Below are positions 39,101-44,889 of a stretch of 46,132 nt of DNA, piece by piece. A program made the position numbers and the translations under genes. The stretch comes from a virus, in the IMG/VR virus record IMGVR_UViG_3300030117_006500, positions 1 to 46,132 of that record. One strand, written 5' to 3'. Position 1 is the first letter of the stretch, and every line of letters begins with the position of its first letter. Below the pieces are notes generated by a model. It searched no databases and had not been told where the DNA came from. It saw only the letters and a program-made list of their open reading frames with translations.

Positions 39101-39678
39101 AATCTTATGATTATATGTTGCTATATGCAATAAATGATGGGGCTGTGGCGCCTTTAGATGGAAACCGAAACAATGACAAGGAAAGAGGGATATATCATTT
39201 TGGTATTGGTAAGCCAGAGGGAATAATAAAAACAATCAATTTTACAAAAACTGACATACCGTTTCTAAGAGAAAACAGGCTAGAACAAGAATTTCTTGGT
39301 CAGATAACAGGACTAGCTGTCCTCGCAAACGTATACAATATAAAAGTACAGTGTTACGGCACTACAATGTTTTTCCCTGGAATGAAAATTTACTTAAACC
39401 CAATTGGACTCTCTCCTAGTTTTGGATCACCAATCGCCCAGCCTGGGCGCAGATCCCCTGCCAGTGTACTGGGAATTGGAGGATACCACGTCATAACTAA
39501 AGTTCAATCATACATTGAAAGGGGAACGTATACAACAGAACTAACTGCAATATGGGAAGCAGCTGGAACATCCTTGGGGGATCCTGCTGCTGGAGATGCA
39601 AGTGCGGAGCCAACACAAAATGAAGAGTGCAGGGTTCAGAGAAAAGAAATAAGATCTCTAATAACAAAAATGGCCTAA
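36127..39678 (+). CDS. Very large baseplate / tail structural protein
   Basis: The gene starts with GTG 36127. The 1183-residue product has a helical, polar N-terminal part (1-380), a centre with beta-rich domains (IPFSSFIREAEIESML, YVDLVNIGIAHPEKSF, IILHLAAYDHDIQIND), and a C-terminal domain. The last contains NVYNIKVQCYGTTMFFPGMK and GIGGYHVITKVQSYIERGTY followed by TTELTAIWEA. This last pattern is typical of hub or tube-tip proteins in contractile tails. Adjacent genes are baseplate components, so a hub or wedge scaffold is likely. No lysozyme or carboxypeptidase motif is seen. It has no counterpart of this size in T4 that I recognise. Confidence 0.6.
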   Translation: MAHEPDHSDDSSSRALPGRVGGRTEEQFIIDSGYGEQYLLSNIQERLSQVQDELREIRSDVLRTADNWFDNQVRTNQYPRWIGEPSAYLETVPPRIFRYVDLFDTANAPMANMVQQLRSVIINGYVFYTIRSGLPSPRDTQNAPLQARPLTDQDRQTLRDMYQSAEGLLRSTDTLTTEAKSSLSARLVTFGVDTRLPTSNEAQQRLLQEGLGEDFGGGRLASATLATLPYEAKIALNIYINQWIWVYSVLQSQDNILPVEPPAIEPLALLEKIATIYKDSRFRQLIIESRDQAIREVRGERSFDIQLPEEVLRGELEATEDWVVERSRDILEDLVEAQFDDGPEQSPAERAQQRRLAEQTFLLDFLDQYSEMNQKRAVQHISDGGEPHFIMVHGQTDTIVNRLMYNPSMESLDNIKTSELSGLVPKIKIFKSTYLPSEDYLSGREIRHEIPFSSFIREAEIESMLERSFERGRGVGIKSFEWRLEGRDPFAARRDIFARLELYFQSMDELIRTRYVPTGQARYVDNNETYGDRDNRLSYRYVDLVNIGIAHPEKSFVWNPNYYKIEVEAGWYLPDGTGDASTFQSAGTREAIKNSTIILHLAAYDHDIQINDQGNVTLTIEYTAWQEGLYLGPDSDILTTPERRRDRLRYIKTLSDRQRSRCPQEYIADLQEAYKRTVRRQNLESWGRILNTLYDQDKVFYTKMNTDLLDTYLSDGRAAFAQPALQELGLRSPVQEFDPTENSNVENPPSRREIDRRTGQDIGGANIIASGSAGILESLKELQYGNDDDNYHLQFMYFGDLLEAALEVVHSDMPPVQGSYGSESKLKENTRIILGPISYNINKRIKDDPPEYTQETVYDINLADIPISVNYFIEWFISKVVGQERAIYPVLSFIREVASDLIANSVRLGGGERNLATQDLKLRTNFFTGGGTDRGDEEKLYTLRNAVVSNEGGSQDSNFVEADTSATYTRVDLDTLDSNSMPVLSAPERGRKSYDYMLLYAINDGAVAPLDGNRNNDKERGIYHFGIGKPEGIIKTINFTKTDIPFLRENRLEQEFLGQITGLAVLANVYNIKVQCYGTTMFFPGMKIYLNPIGLSPSFGSPIAQPGRRSPASVLGIGGYHVITKVQSYIERGTYTTELTAIWEAAGTSLGDPAAGDASAEPTQNEECRVQRKEIRSLITKMA

Positions 39679-39692
39679 AGGGAGGTTTACTT

Positions 39693-40907
39693 TTGAGTAA
39701 CTTTAATGCAAAAAACAATCTTAATACAAAAAAGTTATTTTTTGAAAGGTTAAAATATGCCTCACAGGCCCTAACAGAGGGTGGCCCCAAAGGCACGTTT
39801 AAAAACTTTAGTTTTTCAGAAAGGGTTATGTATGGCAGAATAAAAAAAGACCATAAAGCAATATCTTTAAACCCGTCTTATTTGAAAAATATTAAATCAA
39901 GAAATAAACCAAAAAAACAGTTAAGAGCAATAAATTTTGTTGCGGATGCTTTTGAAAAAGTTGTGCTTGAATTTGAAAAAGCAGCTATTTCAGGAAAACT
40001 CGATGATACTGATCCCTATCTTTACAAGGTAACTGCACACCGTGCTTTTGTCGATCCAGTAAAAAGTTATAGAACATATAATAATAGATTAATTAATTTA
40101 TTTACTAATAAGTTTTTATCAAAAAAAAGAAAAGAACAAATATATAATTTTTCTTCTTTTTTAGATTTTTTTAATACCTTTATCTTACAATCTTCTAAAA
40201 CTTTGCCGATAACTTATACATCTTTTATTACAAGTAACTTTTGTGGGCCTTTAAACTCTGGACTAGCCATACATATAGCAGATTTAGATGCTTCTAACGA
40301 TTCACAAAAAGAACAGTTTATTAATAGTAAAAATTTTAAATTTTATAAAATTATAGCTGAAAAGCATGGGTTTTCAATTAACAAAAACGTACCATGGGTT
40401 TTAATTGCTGACATAGCTAGCCCACCCATGTTAAGATATGCATCTTTATATGGATTTTCATCTGACAATTCAATATTAGATGGGTGTTATTTCCTAGCTC
40501 ACACTAAAGATATAGAAAATTTACAGTCCTTAACCTTAAGGGCTTACAATAATCTGATAAGACTTGAGCCTAAAAATATAAAAATTAATGATTTTGGGAT
40601 TAGACATAGTGTTTGCCGTGTGCCAATATCTGCTGAGCAAGTCTTAGAGGAGTATCCAAATAAAAATTGGGTTGACATCTATATTGATATTCGATATATT
40701 GAGCAGCGTAATCCTGGAAGCTTGGCTAATTTAAGCACAATTAAAAGAAATGCAAAAGCTATACAGGCAGCACAAGGGACTTTGCAAATGCAGGAATATG
40801 TAAATAATTCAATTTTTGGTTTTGATAACTTTAATGGATCATATTCTAAAAACTTTAGTAAAAAGTTTCTAAATGATACCGGAATCCAAACTAAGCCAAC
40901 ATATTAA
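39693..40907 (+). CDS. Conserved AT-rich late protein of unknown function
   Basis: I choose TTG 39693, preceded at 7 bases by GGGAGG, over the GTG at 39627 inside the upstream gene. The 404-residue product begins MSNFNAKNNLNTKKLFFERL. It is rich in Lys, Asn, Phe and Ile and contains INFVADAFEKVVLEFEKAAI, YLYKVTAHRAFVDPVKSY and PWVLIADIASPPML. From memory, similar proteins occur beside the baseplate genes of T4-like marine phages, without assigned role. Base composition is distinctly more AT-rich than its neighbours. It touches the polymerase gene (shared base at 40907), forming the border between late and replication genes. Confidence 0.5.
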   Translation: MSNFNAKNNLNTKKLFFERLKYASQALTEGGPKGTFKNFSFSERVMYGRIKKDHKAISLNPSYLKNIKSRNKPKKQLRAINFVADAFEKVVLEFEKAAISGKLDDTDPYLYKVTAHRAFVDPVKSYRTYNNRLINLFTNKFLSKKRKEQIYNFSSFLDFFNTFILQSSKTLPITYTSFITSNFCGPLNSGLAIHIADLDASNDSQKEQFINSKNFKFYKIIAEKHGFSINKNVPWVLIADIASPPMLRYASLYGFSSDNSILDGCYFLAHTKDIENLQSLTLRAYNNLIRLEPKNIKINDFGIRHSVCRVPISAEQVLEEYPNKNWVDIYIDIRYIEQRNPGSLANLSTIKRNAKAIQAAQGTLQMQEYVNNSIFGFDNFNGSYSKNFSKKFLNDTGIQTKPTY

Positions 40908-42103
40908 TGATTTTTCAAACACTAGACAACAAATCAGAGTGTGTAGGAGTATTTGTTGATGGGGAGCTTCACTTTGACTCTCTACCAGGCGACCTAACCT
41001 CTACATGGAATTACTCGCAGTTTCTCGAAAATCGAGATGATATTGAGTATGCTTTTCTGTATGCGCAGAAGTCGCTTGATGAAGTGTGCCCTCGACATCT
41101 TGAAGACACTTGGTCCTCTATCAACGATAGGCTCAAGGCTTTCCTAAAGGCCTTTGCTGCTGCTAAGGTTGACCTAAACAAAAATTGCTTTTTTGACCTT
41201 GTGCACGACAGGTTCTTGAAGGAGTATTGTAAAGTTCGAAACGACATTACAAAATACGTTCTGTCGAGTTATTTCAAACCTGCTAATTATGACTTCTTGG
41301 TAGACCTAACAAAAATCCTTCATAATATGAAGTATCGCGATTTGAACATTGACACTACCGAACTCAGAGATTTCATGCATGAGGCACGAACTAGAAAGTT
41401 TGCACAGAAGTTAAACCACACTTCAGTATCGTGTGATTATAATATCTTTGGAACCAAGACGGGGCGCCTAACAACAAAGAGAGATAGCTTCCCTATCCTA
41501 ACGATGGATAAGAGATATCGTAAAATTATTAAGCCCACAAATGATTGGTTTGTGTCCCTTGATTTTAACGGTGCTGAATTGCGTACCTTTTTGGCCTTGG
41601 CAGGGTTAGAGCAGCCAGAAGTGGACGTGCATGAGTGGAATCGCGAGAACGCCTATAGGGGTGTTGGCACCCGTGATGAGGTGAAGGAAAGATTCTTTGC
41701 ATGGCTATACAATATGCAGTCCAAGGACCACCTCTCAGACAGGGTGTACGGTGACAATAGAAGCAAGGTTATTAATGAATACTTTAGCGGCAACAGCGTA
41801 AAGAATCCGTTTAACCGTAGTATTCCTTCTGATGAATATCACGCCATGAGCTATCTGATTCAAAGCACATGCTCAGACGTAGTTCTGCGACAGATGATTA
41901 AGGTAAATAAGTTTCTACAGAGTAAAGAATCTTTTGTTGCTTTCTGTGTGCATGATGAGGTCGTCCTAGACGTGACCGACTCTGAATGTAAATTGATCAA
42001 TGATTTTATTGAACAGTTTTCAAATACTGCTTTAGGAAAGTTTAAGGTTAATGTAAAATACGGCAAGAGCTATGGAGAGATGAGAGAATGCAAACCATCA
42101 TAG
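40907..42103 (+). CDS. Family A DNA polymerase, polymerase domain only
   Basis: The 398-residue product has the three motifs of PolA palm and fingers. Motif A is SLDFNGAELR (Asp219, Glu224). The O-helix R-x3-K-x3-F-x3-Y is Arg256, Lys260, Phe264 and Tyr268. Motif C is FCVHDEVVL (His349, Asp350, Glu351). FGTKTGRL (181-188) and YLIQSTCSD also fit. The residue equivalent to E. coli Phe762 is Phe. There is no 3'-5' or 5'-3' exonuclease domain; the first 150 residues have no motif I recognise. A separate 5'-3' exonuclease lies 3.2 kb downstream. T4 itself uses a family B polymerase. The product is likely the replicative polymerase of this phage, with proofreading supplied by another gene outside the window or absent. 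Confidence 0.88.
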   Translation: MIFQTLDNKSECVGVFVDGELHFDSLPGDLTSTWNYSQFLENRDDIEYAFLYAQKSLDEVCPRHLEDTWSSINDRLKAFLKAFAAAKVDLNKNCFFDLVHDRFLKEYCKVRNDITKYVLSSYFKPANYDFLVDLTKILHNMKYRDLNIDTTELRDFMHEARTRKFAQKLNHTSVSCDYNIFGTKTGRLTTKRDSFPILTMDKRYRKIIKPTNDWFVSLDFNGAELRTFLALAGLEQPEVDVHEWNRENAYRGVGTRDEVKERFFAWLYNMQSKDHLSDRVYGDNRSKVINEYFSGNSVKNPFNRSIPSDEYHAMSYLIQSTCSDVVLRQMIKVNKFLQSKESFVAFCVHDEVVLDVTDSECKLINDFIEQFSNTALGKFKVNVKYGKSYGEMRECKPS

Positions 42104-42912
42104 GCCTCGGCGCAGCTGGGTGTAATATCGCAGATAAGTTTTCCTCTTATCCCCAGTACGCAGTATACAAGATGGACAGTGGACTGAAGAGGACTCCAGC
42201 TACCTATGGAGTAAAACAATGCAAAACTCCAGAGGAATATGAGGAATCTGTTGGTAGTTTAAAAAGGTTTTTCAAAAATATCTCAGGAGATGTATTGTTT
42301 ATTGTATCGGCTAGTGGCCTCATATCTGGGGCGTCTCTAAGCATTCTAAAGTATATTAAGCACTGCAAATTGCATTTAATGTGCGTGTACTCAGATGCAG
42401 ACTTGCTTGGGGAGGTTGGAAAAATGCAGCAAAGATTGACATCCAACGTTTTCCAAGAGTATGCTAGGTCCGGTGTGTTTGAACGCACACTTTTAATTGA
42501 CAACGTGTCGCTTGAAAAGGTAATTGGAGATGCTCCTATTATCGGTTTTTATGATAAACTTAACACATTGCTAGTCTCTACAACACATATGATAAATGTA
42601 TTTGAAAACTCTGATAGTGTAATGGATAATATTTCTCCCCCACATGAAATCAGCAGGATAGCGACGTATGGCTTTGTTGATTTTGAGTCAGGCGAAGAAA
42701 AACTATTTTTCCCTATTGACAATATAAGGGAAAAGGTGTATTATTACGCCATCAATGAGAAGAAACTTCGAGAGTCAAGTGACATTCGAAAGAAAATAAT
42801 TTCTCAAGTTAAAGAGAATTCTGTTGACACCAAAGTATCATATGGAATATACTCTACTCAATACGATGAAGACTATGTTTATTGCGTAGCATATTCATCT
42901 ACAGTACAATAA
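42088..42912 (+). CDS. Putative divergent FtsZ/tubulin-superfamily protein
   Basis: The 274-residue product begins with IIGLGAAGCNIADKF (4-18), like the first strand-loop-helix of FtsZ, and a strand ending in an acidic residue follows (YAVYKMD, 24-30). LFIVSASGLISGASLSIL (70-87) occupies the place of the FtsZ signature strand and GGGTGTG loop but lacks its glycines. Further on, a pair of strands and a helix (LLIDNVSLEKVI, then DKLNTLLVSTTHMINVF) follows the order of the FtsZ core. The C-terminal 80 residues end in a beta pair. It overlaps the polymerase gene by 16 bases and precedes SSB, so a role in the replisome, replication centre or cell-division interference is possible. GTP binding is doubtful. 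The assignment rests on pattern recognition; unknown function is the safe label. Confidence 0.42.
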   Translation: MQTIIGLGAAGCNIADKFSSYPQYAVYKMDSGLKRTPATYGVKQCKTPEEYEESVGSLKRFFKNISGDVLFIVSASGLISGASLSILKYIKHCKLHLMCVYSDADLLGEVGKMQQRLTSNVFQEYARSGVFERTLLIDNVSLEKVIGDAPIIGFYDKLNTLLVSTTHMINVFENSDSVMDNISPPHEISRIATYGFVDFESGEEKLFFPIDNIREKVYYYAINEKKLRESSDIRKKIISQVKENSVDTKVSYGIYSTQYDEDYVYCVAYSSTVQ

Positions 42913-42917
42913 TAAAA

Positions 42918-42945
42918 TAACCAGAGGTTGGGGATATTTGCCCAA
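42918..42945 (+). promoter_or_regulatory. Structured leader of the SSB gene, possible operator
   Basis: Two short overlapping helices can form in the 55-base gap: AACC with GGTT, and TTGGG (42928-42932) with CCCAA (42941-42945). An unpaired AT-rich stretch and the ribosome binding site AAGGAG follow. T4 gene 32 is translationally autoregulated by binding a structured leader followed by an unstructured AU-rich region, so this layout is suggestive, no more. Confidence 0.3.
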
Positions 42946-42967
42946 TTTACTATACAAGGAGAAAACA

Positions 42968-43723
42968 ATGGGAATCAATCTAGACAAGATGCGAGAGAAG
43001 CTTGCCGCAGTACAGAACCGTGGCGATTCAAGCAAGAGTGCTTTCTGGCGACCAGAGGACGGCGACCAGACTATCAGAATCATCCCAACAGAGGATGGAG
43101 ACCCTTTCAAGGAGGTGTATTTTCACTATAACGTAGCTAAGGGTGGAATTGTTTGCCCAAAGCGTAACTATGGTGATGATTGTCCAATCTGCGAGTTTGC
43201 CTCTAATCTGTGGCGAGAGGGGTCGAACAATAACGACGAAGCCTCCAAGAAGATGGCAAAGAGCCTATTTGCTAGGCAACGCTTCTTTAGTCCAGTGATG
43301 GTTCGAGGAGAGGAGCAAGAGGGTCCTCGTTGGTGGGGATATGGCAAGATGGCCTATGAGACACTTCTTAGTCTTGTCCTGAATCCTGACTACGGTGACA
43401 TCACCGACCCAGAAGAGGGAACCGATATTGTGCTTAGCTATGGAAAGCCTCCTGGGGCCTCATTCCCACAGACAAAGCTGCAACCTCGTCGTAGAACATC
43501 TCCTATGATGGAAAGCGAAGAGACAATTACTGAAACTCTAAATGCCATTCCTGACGTTGAAGAGCTTTTTGAGCGCAAGTCGACACAAGAGGTTCAGGTA
43601 ATTCTTGATGAATTTATGTCTAAGGATGTAGATGCAGAATCTTCTTCTTCGGAATCTGTTCACTATAACAACAATAGCGGAAATTCCGTTGATCAGGCAT
43701 TCAAAGAGCTAATGAACGCATAG
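42968..43723 (+). CDS. Single-stranded DNA-binding protein (T4 gp32-like)
   Basis: The ATG at 42968 follows AAGGAG at good spacing; the in-frame ATG or alternative at 42938 has no site. The 251-residue product has a basic N-terminal helix (self-interaction), then FWRPEDGDQTIRIIP leading into an OB-fold. Its zinc site is His53, Cys63, Cys72 and Cys75, close in spacing to the His-Cys-Cys-Cys site of T4 gp32. The aromatic-rich core (RWWGYGKMAYETLLSL) fits DNA binding, and the C-terminus is acidic, Ser-rich, ending QAFKELMNA. It coats single strands and organises polymerase and recombinase. Neighbouring genes are polymerase, recombinase and exonuclease. Slightly shorter than T4 gp32 (301). Confidence 0.88.
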   Translation: MGINLDKMREKLAAVQNRGDSSKSAFWRPEDGDQTIRIIPTEDGDPFKEVYFHYNVAKGGIVCPKRNYGDDCPICEFASNLWREGSNNNDEASKKMAKSLFARQRFFSPVMVRGEEQEGPRWWGYGKMAYETLLSLVLNPDYGDITDPEEGTDIVLSYGKPPGASFPQTKLQPRRRTSPMMESEETITETLNAIPDVEELFERKSTQEVQVILDEFMSKDVDAESSSSESVHYNNNSGNSVDQAFKELMNA

Positions 43724-43773: not shown

Positions 43774-44889
43774 ATGGCAAGAGCGAGAAAAGTAACTACT
43801 GGTAAACTATCGATGAGTGATATGCGTGCTTTAATTAATAAGCAGGCTGGATGCGAAGTCGCGTTTAATTTAAATGAAGATAACCCTACGGAGGTCGAGG
43901 AGTGGATTCCAACTGGTTCTAGGTGGCTTGATTCTATTGTTTGTCGAGGTCGTTTAGCTGGAATTCCTGTTGGAAAGATTGTAGAAATTGCCGGTCTAGA
44001 AGCTACTGGCAAGTCTTATATGGCCGCACAAATCGCTTCTAATGCGCAGAATATGGGAATCGATGTATTTTATTTTGATTCTGAGTCAGCCATCGATCCG
44101 ACGTTCCTAGTCCGAGCGGGTTGCGATCTTGATAAGATGATGTACATTCAAGCGTCATCTGTAGAGTTTGTGCTAGAAACTATCGAAACACTTTTGGCGT
44201 CTAACGACAATCGAATGCTGTTCATCTGGGATTCTTTAGCACTAACCCCAGCGATTAGTGATATTGAGGGAGATTTTAATCCTCAATCATCCATGGCGAT
44301 GAAGGCACGTATTCTTTCAAAGGGAATGGCAAAACTCACTCAACCGATTGCTAATTCTAAATCAACATTTCTTGTTCTTAACCAGCTAAAGTCAAATATC
44401 ACTAGAGTTGCGGCTGAAGCATTAACTACGCCGTATGTTACCCCAGGTGGTAAGTCAATGATCTATGCTTATTCTCTAAGGATTTGGCTAACTAGGAGAA
44501 AGGCAAAGAATAGCTTTGTTATGGATGAGAATGGATTCCGAGTTGGATCAGAAGTAAAGGTTAAGCTAGAAAAGTCAAGATTTGGAACCCAAGGAAGGCA
44601 ATGTACTTTCAAGATTCTCTGGGGTAATGAGATTGGCATTCAAGATGATGAGAGTCTTTTTGAAGCTATTAAATCTTCTAAATATCTTGACCAGCGAGGT
44701 GCCTGGTATGATCTTGATATGGGAGACGGGGAAAAGCAAAAATTCCAGTCCTCTAAGTGGATGGAAATGATGGAATCGGATGCCTTTAGGCAGAGGGTAT
44801 ATGACATCATGGATGAAGAAGTTATTTTTAACTTTGAAAAACGCGAAGGAAACGCTGAGGACTACTATAATATTGATCCCGAAGAGTAG
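43774..44889 (+). CDS. UvsX/RecA-family recombinase
   Basis: The 371-residue product is a RecA-type strand-exchange ATPase. Walker A is GLEATGKS (74-81). A conserved glutamate follows in FYFDSESAIDP (Glu104, equivalent to the catalytic RecA Glu96). Walker B is MLFIWDSLALTP (148-159), and LVLNQLKSNI is followed by a TPGGKSMIYAYSLRI core. C-terminal residues are acidic. T4 UvsX drives strand invasion, feeding recombination-dependent replication together with SSB and the gp46/47 nuclease, all of which are encoded in this window. A GGAGGA site precedes the ATG. Length is close to T4 UvsX (391). Confidence 0.93.
   Translation: MARARKVTTGKLSMSDMRALINKQAGCEVAFNLNEDNPTEVEEWIPTGSRWLDSIVCRGRLAGIPVGKIVEIAGLEATGKSYMAAQIASNAQNMGIDVFYFDSESAIDPTFLVRAGCDLDKMMYIQASSVEFVLETIETLLASNDNRMLFIWDSLALTPAISDIEGDFNPQSSMAMKARILSKGMAKLTQPIANSKSTFLVLNQLKSNITRVAAEALTTPYVTPGGKSMIYAYSLRIWLTRRKAKNSFVMDENGFRVGSEVKVKLEKSRFGTQGRQCTFKILWGNEIGIQDDESLFEAIKSSKYLDQRGAWYDLDMGDGEKQKFQSSKWMEMMESDAFRQRVYDIMDEEVIFNFEKREGNAEDYYNIDPEE

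Follow-up and report, generated by a model that had tools for sequence, protein, structure and literature searches.

What would a relative of FtsZ and tubulin be doing between the DNA polymerase and single-strand DNA-binding protein (SSB) genes of a phage? The question is raised by an uncultured virus genome (IMG/VR record IMGVR_UViG_3300030117_006500; the whole stretch of 46,132 nucleotides that we analysed is herein referred to as the window), which its terminase, portal, major head protein, sheath, tube and baseplate families mark as a contractile-tailed, T4-type phage, and which also encodes gp46/SbcC-like and UvsX proteins. The original prediction, made from the sequence alone, was of a possible degenerate FtsZ/tubulin-like protein with a broken GTP signature at this position, either repurposed, perhaps non-polymerising and tied to the replisome, or acting as an inhibitor of host FtsZ. 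The open reading frame is a real, conserved gene whose extent, strand and neighbors are as predicted (table 1), and the sequence features on which the prediction was built can all be located in its product: the glycine-rich N-terminal loop, a second strand that ends in Asp30 (YKMD) and, within the region of residues 70–87 where a divergent second loop had been read, SASGLISGA at residues 74–82. As these features are conserved in 133 distinct homologues, they are not due to chance.

Table 1. Positions of the tubulin-like gene, its sequence elements and its neighbors in the window.
Feature	Position	Strand	Evidence
Degenerate tubulin/FtsZ-fold protein (TUB), 274 aa	42088..42912	+	ORF, fold models, at least 133 distinct family sequences
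T1 glycine loop GLGAAGCN (residues 6–13)	42103..42126	+	Alignment; matched to FtsZ T1 by hhalign
T4-equivalent loop SASGLISGAS (residues 74–83)	42307..42336	+	Alignment, hhalign
End of helix H5, QEYARS (residues 123–128); Q123, R127 and S128 invariant	42454..42471	+	Alignment of 133
Asn139, aligned to FtsZ nucleotide-contact Asn at the end of S6	42502..42504	+	hhalign, alignment
H7 core helix (residues 154–173), with Asn159 and HMINV motif	42547..42606	+	Model, hhalign, alignment
Coil 174–190, at the place of FtsZ T7 loop and helix H8; no NxDxxD	42607..42657	+	Model, alignment
C-terminal tubulin/FtsZ-type domain (residues 191–274), without H9	42658..42909	+	Model, structure match
Mini family-A DNA polymerase of 398 aa with conserved motifs A, B and C	40907..42103	+	PF00476 (E 7.5e-16), motif alignment
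gp32-type single-strand DNA-binding protein	42938..43723	+	PF08804 (E 6.6e-18)
UvsX/RecA-like recombinase, member of the conserved block	43774..44889	+	Domain match, synteny

Related stretches number at least 583 among uncultured viral contigs (not deduplicated), and the family analysis rests on a set of 133 distinct sequences (effective number 71 at 70% identity). Annotated sequence space is empty by comparison: tblastn with three family members found no relative in 50,697 annotated phage records, single-sequence searches of Pfam, PHROGs and PDB sequences gave no significant match to the protein, a profile search of PDB sequences with the family gave none either, and we found no paper in the open-access literature that describes such a tubulin family. 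The family is large and belongs to the core gene set of its phages, and we could find no description of it. The sole match in a cellular genome, the WOR-3 MAG CP070664, was discarded as unreliable host evidence; it is an N-joined pseudo-chromosome with scattered phage fragments, several of which (L128 and L227–L246) lie separately between runs of N, and these stretches are binned virus rather than a clean prophage.

Structure prediction supports the FtsZ-like order of strands and helices that had been proposed. The AlphaFold2 model of the window protein (alignment of 98 sequences; pLDDT 94.6, pTM 0.92) runs S1-H1-S2 ... S4-H4-S5-H5-S6-H6-H7-S7-S8-H10-S9-S10 (names by analogy to FtsZ), with an H7 helix of 20 residues. 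All 50 of the 50 PDB chains listed by Foldseek for this model are FtsZ, TubZ, CetZ or tubulin (best E about 4.3e-12, to FtsZ), and VIA-align places the archaeal CetZ chain 3zid_B first (Z 25.0, rmsd 3.0, 253 residues, spanning 1–274). A second model, of a 32%-identical relative from the most degenerate subclade (pLDDT 93.6), has the same best match (Z 25.3), and for both models FtsZ, TubZ, CetZ and tubulin top the lists over the full length. Both also possess the superfamily architecture of an N-terminal Rossmann-like domain, the long core helix H7 and a C-terminal two-layer domain; the outcome set beforehand as refuting, namely a different Rossmann fold lacking H7, was looked for and the reverse was found. 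Profile comparison by hhalign matches the family to 13 FtsZ sequences over residues 3–166, the GTPase domain (E 3.2e-4, score 36.6; E 1.6e-4 with the 133-sequence family), whereas reversed, shuffled and unrelated controls score 11–22 with E values of 0.04 or worse. Taken by itself this sequence match is modest, and against a single PhuZ sequence the E value is 0.07, which is not significant. In a viral structure library the best match is an FtsZ-like protein of an uncultured phage at 14% identity, and phage PhuZ models appear at TMq 0.55. Because the structural matches of two models and the profile match agree, the tubulin reading is well established at the level of predicted fold, and prediction together with profile comparison shows that in both fold and ancestry the protein belongs to the FtsZ/tubulin superfamily, of which it is a divergent, shortened and previously undescribed member.

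A glycine-rich loop followed by an acidic residue can also be read differently, as the site for a dinucleotide of the NAD type or another nucleotide in an enzyme or metabolite sensor with a tubulin fold. The GLGxAGC loop, with Asp30 closing strand 2 behind it, does resemble a dinucleotide fingerprint, but the loop of FtsZ is similar and conservation of Asp30 reaches only 84%; likewise, the weak Pfam matches of some members to TrkA_N and saccharopine dehydrogenase (E ~0.015) are balanced by a similarly weak score for PF00091 (Tubulin; 0.018), and the whole two-domain structure matches tubulins. An NAD-binding Rossmann protein, as GxGxxG...D might suggest, was rejected on that whole-fold match; dinucleotide binding by a tubulin fold is not excluded, although nothing requires it and we consider it improbable.

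How much of a working GTPase survives within this fold can be judged element by element. The T1 loop is strongly conserved (weighted frequencies over 133 sequences: G6 97%, G8 100%, G11 93%, C12 86%), and hhalign puts Asn139 and Asn159 on or next to guanine-contact residues of FtsZ, which we take to be N165 of E. coli FtsZ for the former and N/D187 (E. coli N187) for the latter. Both are present in the window protein and in 118/133 sequences, are lost in a 12-sequence subclade and three single sequences, and are probably guanine-contact asparagines, if the alignment is a guide. Much of the nucleotide-facing surface formed by T1, S6 and H7 is, in sequence and models, retained along with the two-domain tubulin body. 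The same sources show that features of GTP hydrolysis and cycling, namely the T4 signature, the T3 loop, the T7 acids and helix H8, are missing from the aligned sequences and predicted structures. At the T4 position a family consensus of GGSGxISGAS replaces GGGTG[ST]G, and GGGTG[STA]G occurs in 0/133 family sequences; with the T3 glycine loop missing, S2 to S4 spans ~36 residues in the window model, compared with ~55 in FtsZ; an NxDxxD-like pattern, as in the T7 acid motif, occurs in only 1/133 sequences; and helices H8 and H9 are modelled in neither of the two AlphaFold models.

The claim of a broken GTP signature holds only in part: the letters GGGTGTG are absent, but this absence alone does not show that GTP binding is lost, since phiKZ PhuZ also lacks them (GGASGSTIG). 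Indeed, because PhuZ nevertheless hydrolyses GTP (PMC3678025), the T4 change alone is weak evidence of degeneracy; the loss of T7 and H8 is stronger evidence.

Comparison with known relatives does not place the protein in any described group. It shares with FtsZ the strand and helix order including H7, and the profile match over the GTPase domain, but lacks GGGTG[ST]G, the T3 loop, T7 NxDxxD, H8 and H9. CetZ, an archaeal FtsZ/tubulin-like protein, is the top structural match of both models, but with 12–17% of aligned residues identical; going by the titles of their PDB entries, CetZ structures have GDP or GTP-gamma-S bound, and we know of no phage or replication link for CetZ. TubZ/RepX, the plasmid partition tubulin, is also a high structural match (Z 23) and likewise serves the DNA of a mobile element, but the matched TubZ chains have 380–414 residues. 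TubZ works with TubR, and no TubR-like partner was identified beside the tubulin gene. PhuZ of the nucleus-forming jumbo phages (phiKZ gp39 and 201phi2-1) is alike in being a phage-encoded tubulin fold, in having a strand that ends in Asp after its T1 loop, and in the departure of its T4 loop from the canonical letters, and is a GTPase that forms filaments (PMC3678025, PMC4244570). However, PhuZ has 327 residues, carries a C-terminal tail and uses a catalytic Asp in T7, whereas the window protein has 274, lacks T7, H8 and H9, and is tied to a polymerase gene. The subunit-bridging C-terminal tail of the PhuZ type is absent; the window protein ends at the last domain strand and other family members have at most ~20 extra C-terminal residues. 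Tests for the features that define FtsZ (the T4 signature and T7) and PhuZ (the C-terminal tail) were negative, and the protein should not be filed as FtsZ or PhuZ, and there is no evidence for TubZ or CetZ either. Further strongly diverged families of the FtsZ superfamily are known in FtsZl1 and FtsZl2, of which FtsZl1 also lacks recognisable T6–H7 elements; but these are cellular, larger, retain GGGTG(S/T)G, and their link is to membrane remodelling rather than replication (Makarova and Koonin 2010, PMC2875224).

The most constant residues of the family are Y24, Q123, R127 and S128, invariant in 133/133 sequences and inferred, from secondary structure only, to lie at the C terminus of H5 and within the H1–S2 loop, at the N-domain end opposite the nucleotide. 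In the 12-sequence pocket-loss subclade, K/R/Q139, S159 and A167 replace N, N and H while all four invariant residues are kept; the constant part of the protein is hence not the guanine pocket. Loci of this subclade among L203–L220 (such as L208, L211, L219 and L220), where both guanine-contact Asn and His167 are lost and T4 reads GGDPISGA, amount to a natural experiment in pocket loss.

These patterns bear on the main rival to the interpretation that we favor, a phage filament of the PhuZ or TubZ kind, which we regard as less likely. The protein would form a head-to-tail polymer, with or without rapid GTP turnover, that positions or organises replicating phage DNA, and its gene would sit with replication genes because the protein acts on replicating genomes. 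A fold closest to CetZ and TubZ suits such a polymer, as do the T1 loop and the two guanine-contact Asn kept in most members, but one subclade has lost these Asn; conserved residues both at the nucleotide end and, by inference from secondary structure, at the opposite end of the N-domain are what head-to-tail contact needs, but the T7 acid motif is absent in 132/133 sequences, H8 and H9 are in neither model, and there is no extra PhuZ-like C-terminal tail, the window protein stopping at the domain end. PhuZ remains a precedent for an active phage GTPase without GGGTGTG (PMC3678025).

The genomic context of the family is far more uniform than its sequence. Across 128 loci the recurrent order is orf426 - polA - tubulin - gp32 - uvsX - exonuclease, the last encoding a 5'-3' enzyme, with polA found in 120, gp32 in 123 and uvsX in 93, absences being mostly contig ends. 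A survey of homologues thus confirms the anticipated linkage to SSB, and linkage to the polymerase is tighter still: in searches that start from the polymerase, the tubulin gene comes next in 45/45 loci with sequence beyond the polymerase (a count that leaves out three contigs, L224–L226, ending inside the polymerase gene), demonstrating that the coupling of the two genes is obligatory. Polymerase stop and tubulin start codons overlap in 105/164 loci, and overlap or lie within 20 nt in 130/164 (in the window they overlap by 16 nt), an arrangement that points to coupled translation, as far as gene layout can tell. The partial distance correlation of tubulin over 56 phages is largest with polA (0.46), followed by uvsX (0.29), orf426 (0.20) and gp32 (0.14); being modest and uncorrected for shared phylogeny, the polA value is only suggestive, as related sequences are not independent. 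Of the neighboring genes in the window, the one encoding the gp32-type SSB likely has its true start at ATG 42968, after AAGGAG, and the 426-aa protein at 39627–40907, without a Pfam or PHROGs match, is fast-evolving and syntenic upstream of the polymerase in most loci.

The mini polymerase itself is conserved in at least 119 distinct phage sequences, with the family-A motif residues intact (D219, E224, R226; R256, K260, F264, Y268; H349, D350) and no exonuclease domain recognised in its 398 residues. Since 5/6 larger relatives examined encode a DnaE-type polymerase, the family-A enzyme is probably not their sole replicase, and gap filling, primer removal or repair are inferred as its natural roles. 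No sliding clamp of the T4 gp45 or DnaN families was found in six relatives, although divergent clamps can escape such searches. One relative of 186 kb (G041, L161–L170), in which neither a T4-type nor a DnaN-type clamp was recognised, encodes DnaE polymerase, DnaB helicase, DnaK, GroEL, IMP dehydrogenase, a Mom-like protein and a ClpP-like protease. Among cultured phages, a related polymerase was found only in Flavobacterium phage immuto (MW353176; L171:1346-2318), at 27% identity; its order polA-x-y-SSB-RecA-exonuclease-DnaB is that of the tubulin phages, with two small unknown, unrelated-looking proteins of 151 and 171 aa in the place of the tubulin.

This coupling weighs on the second function originally proposed, in which the protein would be a poison or decoy, using its FtsZ-like face to bind or cap the filaments of host FtsZ and thereby stop division. 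An FtsZ fold that has lost the elements needed for a cycling polymer would suit a poison, and phage inhibitors of FtsZ do exist; the known examples considered here (T7 Gp0.4, lambda Kil and T5.008) are, however, small proteins or peptides and not tubulin homologues. Moreover, no contig of sufficient length has the tubulin gene without the polymerase, their codons overlap or adjoin across phages with tubulin identities down to ~30%, and tubulin divergence tracks the replication proteins. As there is no evident reason for a poison to stay coupled to a polymerase through such divergence, we disfavor an FtsZ inhibitor as a long shot, without excluding it.

The first proposal, of a repurposed, perhaps non-polymerising and replisome-tied protein, fits the evidence best, its function being inferred. 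We hypothesize (with a probability of about 0.42) that the protein is a degenerate, probably non-hydrolysing and non-cycling tubulin that serves as an accessory or scaffold of the module of mini-polymerase, SSB, recombinase and exonuclease. It would be a stable scaffold, nucleotide-binding or nucleotide-free, whose invariant Y24/Q123/R127/S128 patch probably contacts the mini-polymerase, and perhaps SSB, so as to keep the polymerase in place at gaps, at Okazaki junctions or at recombination intermediates; it would act as a monomer or short oligomer rather than as a dynamic filament. The degeneracy of the protein is demonstrated, but the loss of hydrolysis, the contact with the polymerase and the role in synthesis are inferred, as is the status of GTP binding and polymerisation, there being no interaction, nucleotide-binding or replication data. 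Against an accessory role, shared gene order and overlapping codons speak for co-expression and not for contact; the retention of T1, N139 and N159 in most members suggests, at the level of sequence, that nucleotide binding still matters there; and the best-studied prokaryotic tubulin relatives (FtsZ, TubZ and PhuZ) polymerise. More tentative still is the narrower proposition that a tubulin fold, no longer a cytoskeletal GTPase, has become an obligatory accessory subunit of a minimal family-A polymerase in a large lineage of uncultured phages.

Described prokaryotic tubulin relatives are known mainly as polymers with roles in cell division, cell shape or DNA movement. Here, the machinery of hydrolysis has been shed while the gene stays locked to a DNA polymerase. 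That the gene of a tubulin relative always immediately follows that of a small DNA polymerase suggests that viral DNA replication or repair has co-opted a cytoskeletal fold. If the protein is a true partner of the polymerase, it would be the first case, as far as we know, of a tubulin inside DNA synthesis; if it instead forms a filament, it would show polymerisation by a minimal tubulin that lacks the T7 acids and would test what is essential to tubulin assembly.
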